Assembly (NCBI RefSeq): GCF_014197535.1
Contig: NZ_JACIFV010000001.1
Span: forward strand, 567,606 to 631,605
DNA: 64,000 nt
Source of the DNA: Rhizobium aethiopicum
GTDB taxonomy: Bacteria; Pseudomonadota; Alphaproteobacteria; Rhizobiales; Rhizobiaceae
Direction: 5' to 3'
The notes under the pieces: generated by a model
What the model saw: the letters and a program-made list of their open reading frames with translations, nothing else
The model's database searches: none
What the model was told of the DNA's origin: nothing
Part shown: positions 53,243 through 58,393 of the stretch, in pieces
How the letters are laid out: every line of letters starts with the position of its first letter
Numbering within the stretch: the first letter of the stretch is position 1
Translations under genes and position numbers: made by a program

Positions 53243-54745
53243 ATGAACAAACGAATCTCCCCTCTGTCGCCCCTCGACATATCCTCTCCGCCTCCTTTCC
53301 AGCCCGAGAGTTTCGATGATCCGGCCAAGGCCGTCGAGACGCTGACAGCGCTTTATGAACGCAATACGGCGTTCCTGATCCAGAGCTTCACCGACCTTGC
53401 CCAGGGCGCTCCGATCGCCTCGCGCTACCGCGCCTTCTATCCGCAGGTCAGCATCGAGACGACGAGCTTCGGCCATGTCGATTCGCGCCTCTCCTACGGC
53501 CATGTCACGGCGCCCGGCATCTACACGACGACGGTCACCCGGCCGAAGCTCTTCAAGCATTACCTGAAGGAGCAGCTGTCGCTTTTGATACGGAGCCACA
53601 ATGTTCCGATCGTCGTCTCGGAATCCTCGACGCCGATTCCGCTGCACTTCGCCTTCGGCGAGGGCGCGCATGTCGAAGCATCGGCCTCAGCCTTCGTCGA
53701 CGTTCCAATGCGCGATATCTTCGATACGCCCGATCTTAACACCACCGACGACGAGATCGCCAACGGCGAATATATTCCGCCGCCGGGAGAGCCCTCGCCG
53801 CTTGCGCCATTCACCGCGCAGCGCATCGACTATTCCCTCGCCCGGCTGTCGCATTATACGGCGACGCATGCCGAGCATTTCCAAAACTTCGTTCTGTTTA
53901 CGAACTACCAGTTCTATATCGACGAATTCTGCAGTTGGGCGCGCAAGCTGATGGCGCAGGGCGGCGATGGCTACACGGCCTTCGTCGAGCCCGGCAACAT
54001 CGTCACCCTGCCCGGCTCGAGCGTGCCGCAAACGGATGCTACACTGACCCGCCTGCCGCAGATGCCAGCCTATCATCTGAAGAAAAAGGGCCATGCCGGG
54101 ATCACCATGATCAATATCGGCGTCGGCCCCTCCAACGCCAAGACGATCACCGACCACGTCGCCGTGCTGCGCCCGCATGCCTGGCTGATGCTCGGCCACT
54201 GCGCCGGCCTGCGCAACAGCCAGCGGCTCGGCGATTACGTTCTCGCCCATGCCTATATGCGCGAGGACCATGTTCTCGACGACGACCTGCCGGTGTGGGT
54301 GCCGATTCCGGCGCTGGCCGAAGTGCAGGTGGCGCTGGAAGCGGCCGTGGCCGAAATCACCGGTTACGAGGGTTTCGAGCTGAAGCGCATCATGCGCACC
54401 GGCACAGTCGGCACGATCGACAACCGCAACTGGGAACTGCGCGACCAGCGAGGGCCGGTGAAGCGGCTGTCCCAGGCGCGCGCCATCGCGCTCGACATGG
54501 AATCGGCCACGATCGCCGCCAACGGCTTCCGCTTTCGTGTGCCCTACGGCACGCTGCTCTGCGTCTCCGACAAACCGCTGCACGGCGAGTTGAAGCTGCC
54601 TGGCATGGCGACGGCCTTCTACCGCACGCAGGTGAACCAGCATCTTCAGATCGGCATCCGTGCCGTCCAGAAGCTGGCCGCCATGCCGAAGGAAGCGCTG
54701 CATTCGCGCAAACTTCGCAGCTTCTTCGAAACGGCCTTCCAATAG
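53243..54745 (+). CDS. amn: AMP nucleosidase
   Basis: A 500-residue protein. The N-terminal domain (about 1-185) is the AMP nucleosidase-specific region, and the C-terminal part is a purine phosphorylase-like domain (HAGITMINIGVGPSNAKTITDHVAVLRPHAWLMLGHCAGLRNSQRLGDYVLAHAYMREDHVLDDD; ALDMESATIAANGFRF). It hydrolyses AMP to adenine and ribose-5-phosphate. ATG 53243 lacks an SD site and lies 5 bases after TATAAT, so it may be translated leaderless. Confidence 0.93.
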   Translation: MNKRISPLSPLDISSPPPFQPESFDDPAKAVETLTALYERNTAFLIQSFTDLAQGAPIASRYRAFYPQVSIETTSFGHVDSRLSYGHVTAPGIYTTTVTRPKLFKHYLKEQLSLLIRSHNVPIVVSESSTPIPLHFAFGEGAHVEASASAFVDVPMRDIFDTPDLNTTDDEIANGEYIPPPGEPSPLAPFTAQRIDYSLARLSHYTATHAEHFQNFVLFTNYQFYIDEFCSWARKLMAQGGDGYTAFVEPGNIVTLPGSSVPQTDATLTRLPQMPAYHLKKKGHAGITMINIGVGPSNAKTITDHVAVLRPHAWLMLGHCAGLRNSQRLGDYVLAHAYMREDHVLDDDLPVWVPIPALAEVQVALEAAVAEITGYEGFELKRIMRTGTVGTIDNRNWELRDQRGPVKRLSQARAIALDMESATIAANGFRFRVPYGTLLCVSDKPLHGELKLPGMATAFYRTQVNQHLQIGIRAVQKLAAMPKEALHSRKLRSFFETAFQ

Positions 54746-54754
54746 GCCGTTTCT

Positions 54755-54970
54755 TCATCGGCCCGTCAGGACAGGCGCCGAACTCTGGGCAGGCATCTGC
54801 GGCCTGCCGGCAGCAATATTCAGCACTGCAATCAACAGGGTAAAAGCGACGAAGATGAAAGCGACGCGCAGAAGGGCCTTCAGGCCACCGCTTTCGTCGA
54901 ATGCCAACGCGCGCTTCTCATGGCGCCGCGCCCAGATCTGGCTTGCCAGTGCGATTTCAAGAATACTCAT
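54755..54970 (-). CDS. Small single-pass membrane protein
   Basis: A 71-residue frame from ATG 54970, preceded by GAGGAG at proper spacing. MSILEIALASQIWARRHEKR, a hydrophobic helix (about 35-57: ALLRVAFIFVAFTLLIAVLNIAAG), then a polar tail. No family recognised. It ends 9 bases after the amn stop on the opposite strand. Confidence 0.5.
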   Translation of the reverse strand: MSILEIALASQIWARRHEKRALAFDESGGLKALLRVAFIFVAFTLLIAVLNIAAGRPQMPAQSSAPVLTGR

Positions 54971-55003
54971 TGCCATTCTCCTCGACAGGTTTCGACGAAG
55001 CGT

Positions 55004-55030
55004 TGTCGAGTGCTGTCTTGCGATTTCGAC
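55004..55030 (+). promoter_or_regulatory. Candidate ECF42-type promoter, distal
   Basis: TGTCGA (55004-55009), 17-base spacer, CGAC (55027-55030). This matches the TGTCGA / CG(A/T)C pattern I recall for ECF42 sigma factors. It lies 97 bases before the first DGPF gene. Confidence 0.55.
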
Positions 55031-55063
55031 GCCGGACCGGCACAAAAGATTTTTTTCCGCCGC

Positions 55064-55090
55064 TGTCGAAATGCGTGCGGCTCGGTCGTC
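55064..55090 (+). promoter_or_regulatory. Candidate ECF42-type promoter, proximal
   Basis: TGTCGA (55064-55069), 17-base spacer, CGTC (55087-55090), exactly 60 bases downstream of the distal copy and 37 bases before the first DGPF gene start. Confidence 0.6.
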
Positions 55091-55126
55091 CAGGGTTGTT
55101 GAACACGCACAAGGAGGCTGTCCGCG

Positions 55127-55477
55127 ATGAAATATCTCTGTCAGGTCTGGTTCGATGGCGCAGTGCTCGGCGCCAGGACGAAAGAGGAAAAGGCCGAACT
55201 CGGCACGGACTCACTCAACTATGACAAGGCGCTTGCCGAAAGCGGGCATCTGATCGTCGCCCATGCGCTGCAGCCGCCGACATCGGCGGTGACCGTCCGG
55301 GTACGAAGCGGTGAGACGTCAGTGACGGACGGTCCTTTCGCCGAGACGAAGGAAGCGCTCGGCGGCTTCATCCTGATCGAGGCCAAGGATCTCAATGAAG
55401 CAATCCTCGTTGCGGCCGGCATCCCGCTCGCTATGCTCGGCGCTATCGAAGTGCGGCCAATACACGAATTCGGCTGA
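55127..55477 (+). CDS. YCII/DGPF-domain protein
   Basis: A 116-residue YCII-related protein: MKYLCQVWFDGAVLGARTKEEKAEL, VTVRVRSGETSVTDGPFAETKEALGGFILIEAKDLNEAI, with the DGPF motif. These proteins accompany ECF42 sigma factors. The fold is ferredoxin-like alpha/beta; a biochemical role is not established. AAGGAGG precedes ATG 55127. First of three paralogues in a row before the sigma factor gene. Confidence 0.88.
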   Translation: MKYLCQVWFDGAVLGARTKEEKAELGTDSLNYDKALAESGHLIVAHALQPPTSAVTVRVRSGETSVTDGPFAETKEALGGFILIEAKDLNEAILVAAGIPLAMLGAIEVRPIHEFG

Positions 55478-55489
55478 GGAGGTCATATC

Positions 55490-55849
55490 ATGAAGTTTCT
55501 GGGTCAGATCTGGTTCGATACCGAAAAGAGCAAACGTGTCACCCGTGAGGAGTGGGAGGCCGTTACGCAGGAATGCATCGTCAGTGACGACCACTGGCGC
55601 GACAGCGGTCATATGTTGAGCGCGCTGGCGCTCTATGAGCCGGAACAGGCCGTGACGCTTAGGGTTCGCAACGGCTCCGTCGCCGCCACAGATGGTCCCT
55701 TCGCCGAAACCAAGGAGCATCTCGGCGGCTTCGTGGTGATCGAGGCCAAGAATATGGCGGAAGCACAGTCGATCATTTCCACCTTCCCGATCCTCAAATA
55801 TGCATCGATCGAAATCCGGCCGGCCTATTCGATCAAGGATGGGAAATAG
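55490..55849 (+). CDS. YCII/DGPF-domain protein
   Basis: A 119-residue paralogue of the previous gene: MKFLGQIWFDTEKSKRVTREEW, VTLRVRNGSVAATDGPFAETKEHLGGFVVIEAKNMAEAQ, with an intact DGPF motif. It starts 12 bases after the previous stop, behind GGAGGTC. The close spacing shows a single transcript with its neighbours. Confidence 0.88.
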   Translation: MKFLGQIWFDTEKSKRVTREEWEAVTQECIVSDDHWRDSGHMLSALALYEPEQAVTLRVRNGSVAATDGPFAETKEHLGGFVVIEAKNMAEAQSIISTFPILKYASIEIRPAYSIKDGK

Positions 55850-55851
55850 CC

Positions 55852-56211
55852 ATGCGCTTCGTCTGCCTCATCTATAATCCCGCCGACGCGGACAGCACAC
55901 TCAGCCAGGCCGAGGGCGATGAGCTCGTGAGGGCGCATTTCCGCTATGACGAGGAGCTCGAGCACAAAGGCATCATGATCCATTCCGATGCATTGGAAGG
56001 TCCTGACAGCGCCTCGGTGCTGAGAGTGCGCCATGGCATTCTGTCTTCGACCGACGGCCCCTATGTCGAGACAAAGGAACATCTGGCCGGCATCTACATC
56101 ATCGAGGCCGCCGATCTCGAAGAGGCGCGCAAAGTCGTCGCGGGCATTCCAAGCGTCCGGGTCGGGGCGATCGAATTGCGGCCGGTGAGAACGCTCACCC
56201 TGCCACAGTGA
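55852..56211 (+). CDS. YCII/DGPF-like protein with DGPY variant motif
   Basis: A 119-residue paralogue: MRFVCLIYNPADADSTLSQAEG, VLRVRHGILSSTDGPYVETKEHLAGIYIIEAADLEEARK. The DGPF motif reads DGPY here. It starts 2 bases after the previous stop, behind GGAAATAG. It is the most diverged member of the trio and immediately precedes the sigma factor gene. Confidence 0.87.
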   Translation: MRFVCLIYNPADADSTLSQAEGDELVRAHFRYDEELEHKGIMIHSDALEGPDSASVLRVRHGILSSTDGPYVETKEHLAGIYIIEAADLEEARKVVAGIPSVRVGAIELRPVRTLTLPQ

Positions 56212-56221
56212 GGATAGGCAC

Positions 56222-57463
56222 TTGGAACGGGTGATCGAGGACCTCTATCGACAGCATTCGCGCCGGGTGCTGGCGACGCTAATCCGCCTGCTCGGAGATT
56301 TCGATCGGGCGGAGGAAGCGCTTCAGGATGCCTTTGCCGCGGCCGCCCGGACATGGCCGACGGATGGCATCCCCGGTAACCCGTTCGCCTGGCTCGTCTC
56401 AACGGGACGTTTCAAGGCGATCGACACCATCCGGCGGCGAGCGCGCTTCGATGCCTCGCAGCAGCACATCGAGGACAGCCTCTACAGCGTCGACGAAACG
56501 GAGATCGGCGATATGGAAGCGATCGAAGACGACATGCTGCGGCTGATTTTCACCTGCTGCCATCCCGCTATTCCCGCCGACGCGCAGACGGCGATGGCGC
56601 TGCGGGAAATCTGCGGATTGACCACCGAAGAGATCGCCCATGCCTTTCTCGTTCCGGCGCCGACGGTCGCCCAGCGGATCGTCCGCGCCAAGAACAGGAT
56701 TCGGTCGGCGAAGATTCCCTACGAAGTGCCGGACCGCGACGCACTGCCTCAGCGGCTCGATCAGGTGCTGCACGTCATCTATCTCGTCTTCAACGAGGGT
56801 TATTCCGCCTCGTCAGGTATAGACGTGGTTCGCGCCGACCTGACCGCCGAGGCGATTAGGCTGGCGCGGCTGCTTCTGACGCTGCTGCCACATCCCGACG
56901 CAAGCGGTCTGCTGGCGCTGATGCTGCTGCAGGAGTCCCGCCGCCTGGCACGCAGCAAAGAGCAGGGGTCGCTGGTGCTGCTTGCCGACCAGGACCGCTC
57001 GCTCTGGGACCATGCAAAAATCGCGGAAGGCCTGGCGCTGCTCGCCGAAGCGATGCGGGCGGCAGAGCTCGGCGCCTATACGGTGCAGGCAGCGATCGCT
57101 GCCGAGCACGCCAGGGCGCCGACCGCCGAAAAGACCGACTGGCGGCGGATCGCGTTCTACTACGATCTGCTGCTGGCGGCGCAGCCATCGCCGATCGTGG
57201 AACTCAACCGCGCCGTTGCAATCGCCATGGCGGAAGGGCCGGCAAAGGGACTGGATCTGATCGATGCCATTCTTGGGCGCCAGGAACTCAAGGCCTATCA
57301 CCTCGTCCATTCGGCGCGCGCCGATTTCCTGCGCAGGCTCGATCGCACCGAAGAGGCGATCGCTGCCTATCAAACGGCGCTGTCGCTCTGCCGGCAGGAG
57401 CCGGAGCAGGCCTTTCTGCGAAAACGGATTTCAGAGCTTGCCGCGGCGCCCGAGCGGCAGTGA
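56222..57463 (+). CDS. ECF42-type RNA polymerase sigma factor with TPR-like C-terminal extension
   Basis: A 413-residue sigma factor. The start is TTG 56222, 8 bases after GAGG; GTG 56231 is an alternative. Region 2 is at about 1-75 (VIEDLYRQHSRRVLATLIRLLGDFDRAEEALQDAFAAA), region 4 at about 107-165 (LREICGLTTEEIAHAFLVPAPTVAQRIVRAKNRIR). An extension of more than 200 residues follows (DUF6596-like, then TPR-like helices, about 300-400). This long extension and the upstream DGPF genes mark the ECF42 group, which has no anti-sigma factor nearby. Its 3' end overlaps the convergent membrane-protein gene by 33 bases. Confidence 0.9.
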   Translation: MERVIEDLYRQHSRRVLATLIRLLGDFDRAEEALQDAFAAAARTWPTDGIPGNPFAWLVSTGRFKAIDTIRRRARFDASQQHIEDSLYSVDETEIGDMEAIEDDMLRLIFTCCHPAIPADAQTAMALREICGLTTEEIAHAFLVPAPTVAQRIVRAKNRIRSAKIPYEVPDRDALPQRLDQVLHVIYLVFNEGYSASSGIDVVRADLTAEAIRLARLLLTLLPHPDASGLLALMLLQESRRLARSKEQGSLVLLADQDRSLWDHAKIAEGLALLAEAMRAAELGAYTVQAAIAAEHARAPTAEKTDWRRIAFYYDLLLAAQPSPIVELNRAVAIAMAEGPAKGLDLIDAILGRQELKAYHLVHSARADFLRRLDRTEEAIAAYQTALSLCRQEPEQAFLRKRISELAAAPERQ

Positions 57464-58393
57464 GATTGCGGTGCCCGTCAGCGCCGAGACGATGATCAAG
57501 AGATGCGCATTGACGCTTGCCTGCGCCAGCGCAGCCAGAGCCATCCGCTCGCTCGAGGCTCCGAGCGCAATGGCGCCGGCGGTGATACCGGCCGGATAGG
57601 TGCCGACGCCGCCCGGCGCGTGCACCGGCAGAACAGAGGAGAGTTCGCCGCCGAGCGCGCCGCCGAAGCTTGCCGCCATCGGCAACACACCCATTAGGCC
57701 GAGCGCCCAAGCGAGCACGATCACCTTCACCAGCCAGTTGACGATGGTCATCGCCCAAGCGCGCGCAAAGGCCGCGGCATCGAGCGGCAGCCCGTTTTCG
57801 ATTTCGACCACGAATTTCTGCGCCTTATCAGGCAACAGCCTGGCGGCGACCCGCAGAAGCGGCTTGCGTGCAGCGAAGGCTGCGACCGGCAGCAGCAGGA
57901 AGACCGCCCAAAGCGACCACGCGACGAGCGCATCGGCCGCGGCGAGCGCAAAGCCGATGCCGGCCGCCGCCAGCAGGGCGTGCAGGTCGAGCAGCCGCAT
58001 CACCAGGAGCGCTGAGGTTCCGCGGGTCAGCGGGATGCCGAACTCGGTGCGCATCAGCAGCGGAAAGCTGGTCTCGCCGGTGCGGAAGGGCAGCATGATG
58101 TTCAGGAGATTGTGGATCTGGGTGACGCGAAAGAGGGTCGCGAACCGGCCCGCAGTTTCCTTGGGAAAATAGTCGTAGATGCGCCAGGTGCGCAGGAAAT
58201 AGGTGCTCGTCAACGCCACGAGCGCGCCGATCACCGGGCCTGCCCCGACATCGGCCCATTGGCTGATGATGACGGGCCAACCCCAGAACCATTGCACGAA
58301 GAGCGCATAGGCTGCGACAATTACGACCGTCAGCGCCGTCATGCGATTGCGCATAAACCAGGACTGCTGGCTTTCAACGATCGAACTCTTCAT
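57431..58393 (-). CDS. Lysylphosphatidylglycerol-synthase-TM-like (flippase-like) membrane protein
   Basis: A 320-residue membrane protein with about 8 helices: LTSTYFLRTWRIYDYFPK, LFRVTQIHNLLNIMLPFRTGETSFPLLMR and GGELSSVLPVHAPGGVGTYPAGITAGAI, as in the UPF0104/LPG-synthase TM family. Related proteins move lipids or lipid-linked sugars. It is divergent from the Rgt-like cluster, so it may help supply polyprenyl-phosphate sugars to the periplasm; that is inference. Its 5' edge carries the repeat CTTCATGTAGTAGGC. Confidence 0.78.
   Translation of the reverse strand: MKSSIVESQQSWFMRNRMTALTVVIVAAYALFVQWFWGWPVIISQWADVGAGPVIGALVALTSTYFLRTWRIYDYFPKETAGRFATLFRVTQIHNLLNIMLPFRTGETSFPLLMRTEFGIPLTRGTSALLVMRLLDLHALLAAAGIGFALAAADALVAWSLWAVFLLLPVAAFAARKPLLRVAARLLPDKAQKFVVEIENGLPLDAAAFARAWAMTIVNWLVKVIVLAWALGLMGVLPMAASFGGALGGELSSVLPVHAPGGVGTYPAGITAGAIALGASSERMALAALAQASVNAHLLIIVSALTGTAISLPLGRRGKL

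Follow-up and report, generated by a model that had tools for sequence, protein, structure and literature searches.

Results

Genes and features of the locus

The stretch of Rhizobium aethiopicum DNA analysed here, 64,000 nucleotides long and referred to below as the window, contains an operon in which three DGPF/YCII genes precede the gene of an ECF42-type sigma factor (Table 1). This gene content had been proposed in the initial annotation, and profile matches confirmed it. The YCII (PF03795) motif reads TDGPF in two of the proteins and TDGPY in the third. Sigma regions 2 and 4 are present in the sigma factor, with no other sigma regions (Sigma70_r2, E 1.6e-10; Sigma70_r4_2, E 6e-08; both over cut-off), and they are followed by a C-terminal TPR extension of about 200 residues that matches DUF6596 over cut-off (E 4.6e-36) and TPR_2 just below the Pfam cut-off (E 2e-05). 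Regions 2 and 4, DUF6596 and the TPR match are hallmarks that would place the protein in group ECF42, and the neighbourhood is also that of the group, with three PF03795 genes directly upstream in an operon that is kept through the genus. Genes 2 and 3 are mosaic (55490-56211; loci L043-L092). Gene 3 shares about 92% identity with its counterpart in some relatives and about 65% in others while the sigma factor is equally close (86-93%) in both, a pattern suggestive of allele exchange inside the operon. One relative (L135) has four YCII genes in the operon, the first apparently duplicated.

On the other side of the 156-nt intergenic region (54971-55126) lies a small divergent gene that the initial annotation had missed. 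Of the 90 relatives, 88 have an ORF at the same place, and one of the other two loci is a truncated contig. Its pN/pS ratio in two clades is 0.41 and 0.48 in frame, as compared with 0.98-1.33 in the shifted frames (1.01 and 1.27 where the in-frame value is 0.41), and because the ratio is low in frame only, the pattern of substitution shows the ORF to be a real gene under purifying selection. The predicted structure of the protein has helices at residues 3-23 and 26-54, with a hydrophobic stretch in the second (mean pLDDT 69), and we predict with modest confidence a bitopic membrane protein with a single transmembrane segment and an N-terminal helix. Four members gave no hit above the Pfam cut-off, the weaker Pfam hits being to unrelated membrane domains, and NCBIfam gave no match at E values up to 0.01; by these two collections the protein is not a member of the known small membrane or anti-sigma families. 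A search for relatives in plasmid records found none.

Table 1. Features of the divergent locus, in positions of the window
Feature	Position	Strand	Details
Small divergent gene, 71 aa (MSILEIALASQIWARR...TGR)	54755..54970	-	ATG at 54970; absent from the initial annotation
Shine-Dalgarno GAGGAG of the small gene	54978..54983	-	7 nt before ATG 54970; GGAG kept in relatives
Plus reading of the near-palindromic upstream site	55004..55030	+	TGTCGA-N17-CGAC; first motif of the initial annotation
P1-minus, putative divergent ECF42-type promoter	55005..55031	-	-35 CGTCGA 55031-55026 (one mismatch), N17, -10 CGAC 55008-55005
A/T tract AAAAGATTTTTTT	55044..55056		Sequence; A/T-rich tract conserved in the alignment
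P2, putative ECF42-type promoter of the DGPF/sigma operon	55064..55090	+	-35 TGTCGA 55064-55069, N17, -10 CGTC 55087-55090
Shine-Dalgarno AAGGAGG of the first DGPF gene	55111..55117	+	Sequence
DGPF/YCII gene 1, 116 aa	55127..55477	+	PF03795, E 3.3e-22
DGPF/YCII gene 2, 119 aa	55490..55849	+	PF03795, E 1.2e-13
DGPF/YCII gene 3, 119 aa, DGPY variant	55852..56211	+	PF03795, E 2.1e-20
ECF42-type sigma factor, 413 aa	56222..57463	+	TTG start; domain matches

Two motifs in the intergenic region

The initial annotation had described two motifs of the ECF42 type ahead of the operon, and both are found on the plus strand exactly where it placed them, 60 bases apart (TGTCGA-N17-CGAC followed by TGTCGA-N17-CGTC). 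The combined pattern TGTCGA-N17-CGWC has two matches in the whole window, both of them in the intergenic region, where 0.56 are expected; shuffles of the whole window contained at least two matches in 10 of 100 cases, and in window-wide terms the motif by itself is weak evidence. When the 156-nt intergenic region was shuffled 20,000 times with dinucleotides preserved, one site appeared in 0.15% of the shuffles and two sites in none, so the presence of two sites within this region is not due to chance. The bare motif, allowed a spacer of N16-18, has 452 matches in this GC-rich genome and was rejected as a definition of the regulon. The stricter TGTCGAWN16CGWC has 29, most of which fall within long ORFs. 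An A/T tract lies between the two sites, upstream of both -35 elements once the upstream site is read on the minus strand, and could be a shared UP element.

For comparison, the sigma factor had a match in all 148 genomes of the genus that were searched, although some of the matches were distant only, and another 80 loci, with organism names, were added. Footprints were read from 90 distinct upstream regions and the A/T-pair comparison was made on 88 sites; the relatives behind these counts share ancestry. The downstream site, P2, is TGTCGA-N17-CG(T/A)C in all 90 regions, usually 57-64 nt ahead of the first DGPF ATG, and an A/T pair follows TGTCGA at each of the 88 compared sites. The sequence of the spacer varies among the relatives, and because the boxes stay constant while the spacer between them changes, P2 is under selection. 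P2 is intact even in two relatives (L096 and L100) that carry an insertion between it and the gene. This insert of about 103 bp in the leader, with an apparent inverted repeat around GAGCG, is possibly a Rhizobium intergenic repeat.

The TGTCG -35 element, 17-nt spacer and CGTC or CGAC -10 element of P2 are those of the mapped Sinorhizobium meliloti RpoE10 (ECF42) targets SMc01149 and SMb20475, for which the available text of PMC6180224 gives TGTCGG-N17-CGTC promoters with mapped start sites; by analogy with SMc01149 in that text, transcription from P2 is predicted to start near 55099. P2 ends in CGTC, is not symmetric and reads in one direction only. Conservation, the match to the RpoE10 promoters and the occurrence of the same motif before likely targets together strongly support the view that the DGPF/sigma operon is transcribed from P2 as an ECF42-type promoter. 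To this extent the earlier proposal of ECF42-type promoters for the operon stands; it is not supported for the upstream site as a second promoter in tandem and in the same direction. Positive autoregulation, also proposed earlier, is a plausible prediction for P2, although in S. meliloti the operon of RpoE10 did not respond to overexpression of the sigma factor even with a motif ahead of it (PMC6180224).

Direction of the upstream site

Conservation of the upstream site is found mainly on the minus strand, where it lies about 34 nt ahead of the small gene and predicts a start near 54996. The minus reading matches all ten consensus positions in 78 of the 90 relatives and nine in a further 10; in the two remaining loci (L047 and L109) the minus TGTCGAAA is perfect and the spacer differs in length by one base. 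Exceptions to N17-CGAC are N16-CGAC in L047, N18-CGTC in L109 and CGAT in L115, all with the perfect minus TGTCGAAA. The A/T pair after the -35 element is present in 87 of 88 sites on the minus strand and in 7 of 88 on the plus strand (missing in 81), and a matrix trained on P2 sites scored the minus reading higher than the plus reading in 87 of 88.

The plus reading is explained by the symmetry of the motif. Reverse-complemented, TGTCGA-N17-CGAC becomes GTCG-N17-TCGACA, which has the form xGTCGy-N17-CGAC, so that eight of the ten consensus letters are forced on the opposite strand; the ninth (y) is supplied by a conserved T before CGAC. Whether the plus reading is perfect then depends on base 55004 alone, which is not conserved. 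The two sites looked like a tandem pair because a minus-strand TGTCGA-N17-CGAC site also resembles a plus-strand promoter. The plus reading is probably a by-product of this symmetry and would be at most an auxiliary promoter.

In the R. aethiopicum genome itself, the minus -35 element carries one mismatch (CGTCGA) whereas the plus reading is perfect, and for this reason the plus direction could fire here too. Both readings are also perfect in most members of the R. etli/leguminosarum clade, which raises the possibility that in this clade the upstream site fires in the minus direction into the small gene and in the plus direction as an auxiliary promoter of the operon. We consider this unlikely, since the plus reading lacks the A/T pair found at every P2 and is not consistently kept outside the clade.

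Two plus-strand promoters driving the DGPF operon together were what the initial annotation had envisaged; such a pair would give stronger or graded positive feedback, and the plus reading agrees with the idea in being a 10/10 match both here and in 59 of the 90 relatives. The first base of the -35 element, however, is invariant at P2 and is lost at the upstream site in about a third of the relatives (31 of 90). The T is not conserved at this position, being G in 24 relatives, and on the sigma-factor tree its loss amounts to about 10 changes, at least 9 of them on strongly supported branches. Eight of the ten matching letters are those forced by symmetry, the A/T pair after the plus -35 element is absent, and the transcript would carry a leader of about 88 nt as against about 28 from P2. 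The exact 60-base spacing does not hold either: it occurs in 6 of the 90 regions only, with 59 in 35, 62 in 28 and 58 in 12, and all but three relatives have a distance somewhere from 56 to 63. We therefore reject the 60-bp geometry as a fixed functional spacing, and the upstream site is not conserved as a plus-strand promoter held at a set distance from P2; a tandem arrangement is very improbable. Also very improbable is transcription of the operon by a housekeeping or other sigma factor with the motifs as bystanders. In its favour, overexpression of S. meliloti RpoE10 switched on other targets while its upstream YCII gene and operon did not respond, despite the motif and a mapped start that overlaps it (PMC6180224). 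This reading is at odds with the invariance of P2 amid otherwise divergent spacer sequence and with a scan, by consensus match only, that found no sigma-70-like promoter in 54700-57700. The same scan found no intrinsic terminator in this region.

Other sites in the genome and counterparts in other genera

The regulon scan was made by pattern searches. The genome encodes four ECF42 sigma factors, which could cross-recognise the sites of the intergenic region. TGTCGA-type sites precede a lone YCII gene (contig 17) and a DUF899 gene (contig 6), and across the genus this promoter type is kept before DUF899 in 29 of 30 loci and before the lone YCII gene in 12 of 14. Another precedes a glyoxalase-like ORF that follows the ECF42 gene of contig 27; this ORF (L183:3837-4208) has an in-frame TAG and may be a broken gene. 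At the contig-2 paralogue the sigma gene lies between a YCII gene and, downstream, an AHSA1 gene, with two TGTCGG-N17-CGTC sites, and the last base of the -35 element may separate two ECF42 paralogues. No matching promoter was found at the fourth ECF42 locus, on contig 4. On contig 6 (L165, 219375-219401), an MFS-type transporter gene has TGTCGAAA-N15-CGTC 58 nt ahead of it, outside any long ORF, and is a possible further target.

In other genera, counterparts of the small gene occupy the same divergent place behind TGTCGAWW-N17-CGAC (L203, L206, L208, L209, L211, L212 and L223). Their N-terminus is mostly M-x-[ILV]-[LI]-[ED]-x-A-L, with deviating starts in L206 and L209, and the distance from site to ORF is 30-41 nt (L203, L206, L209 and others), or 54 nt in L208. 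L211, L212 and L223 have a weak hydrophobic segment or none, and may encode a different protein that shares the N-terminus. The same scan of ECF42 operons in several other genera (L213-L216 and L218-L220) found P2 and no divergent site. One locus (L196, genome G191) has the small gene with a TGTCGA-N17-CGAC promoter in a genome that does not appear among those listed with a close homologue of the sigma factor; its small gene is possibly an orphan.

Discussion

Our comparison makes it very likely that the 54971-55126 region is a divergent ECF42-controlled region, in which P2 serves the operon on the plus strand and the upstream site serves mainly the small gene on the minus strand. P2 would transcribe the three DGPF/YCII genes and the sigma gene, and the active sigma factor would raise transcription of the operon that encodes it. 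The upstream site, acting mainly on the minus strand, would transcribe the gene of the 71-residue bitopic membrane protein. Both predicted transcripts would have leaders of about 26-28 nt, and the A/T tract between the promoters would be shared. A single sigma factor would thus feed two divergent transcripts, one for its own operon and one for a small membrane protein. The comparisons show the sequences and their conservation, the strand that this conservation favours and the coding constraint on the small gene; that this particular sigma factor recognises the sites, where transcription starts, that the operon is autoregulated and what the small protein does are inferred.

The closest parallel that we have considered is the S. 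meliloti SMc01151-rpoE10 operon, in which, according to the available text of PMC6180224, a YCII gene likewise lies upstream of an ECF42 sigma gene, the promoters with mapped starts have the TGTCG-N17-CGTC form and the regulon is small. In contrast to the present locus, that system has TGTCGG in place of TGTCGA and one YCII gene in place of three, and the same text reports no divergent small gene. Because the contig-2 locus of R. aethiopicum has the RpoE10 architecture (YCII-sigma-AHSA1 with TGTCGG-N17-CGTC), the sigma factor of the window is probably a paralogue of RpoE10 and not its orthologue. The Streptomyces venezuelae ECF42 proteins Sven_0747, Sven_4377 and Sven_7131, as described in the available text of PMC8999054, share an essential TPR-rich C-terminal extension, an adjoining YCII/DGPF gene and the lack of a known anti-sigma factor; the present locus differs in its three DGPF genes and its divergent gene for a small membrane protein. 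Pseudomonas putida ECF-10, also an ECF42 protein, has an adjoining YCII gene as here (PMC8999054, available text). In the Pseudomonas-type loci that we compared (L148-L151), a single YCII gene stands directly before the sigma gene and no TGTCG-type site of the present kind was found in the 300 bp upstream.

The symmetry of TGTCGA-N17-CGAC means that motif scans will call such promoters on both strands. To tell the direction, one has to see whether the base that precedes GTCG and the A/T pair that follows it are conserved.

The overlooked divergent gene is a more interesting result than a tandem pair of promoters. ECF42 sigma factors are widespread, and the available text of PMC8999054 describes their signal and the partner of their TPR extension as unknown. 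The small membrane protein is likely to be a new part of this bacterial switch, and it may act as an envelope effector or as the protein with which the TPR extension interacts. Speculatively, and with the odds against it, it could be the missing ECF42 partner, its conserved N-terminal helix (M-x-[ILV]-[LI]-E-x-A-[LI]) binding the TPR extension and holding the sigma factor at the membrane as an anti-sigma factor or sensor; with the sigma factor switching on both, the result would be a circuit of coupled positive and negative feedback. A conserved, uncharacterised membrane protein whose promoter stands back to back with that of the sigma operon gives a concrete candidate for the TPR partner or for an effector of ECF42 sigma factors.
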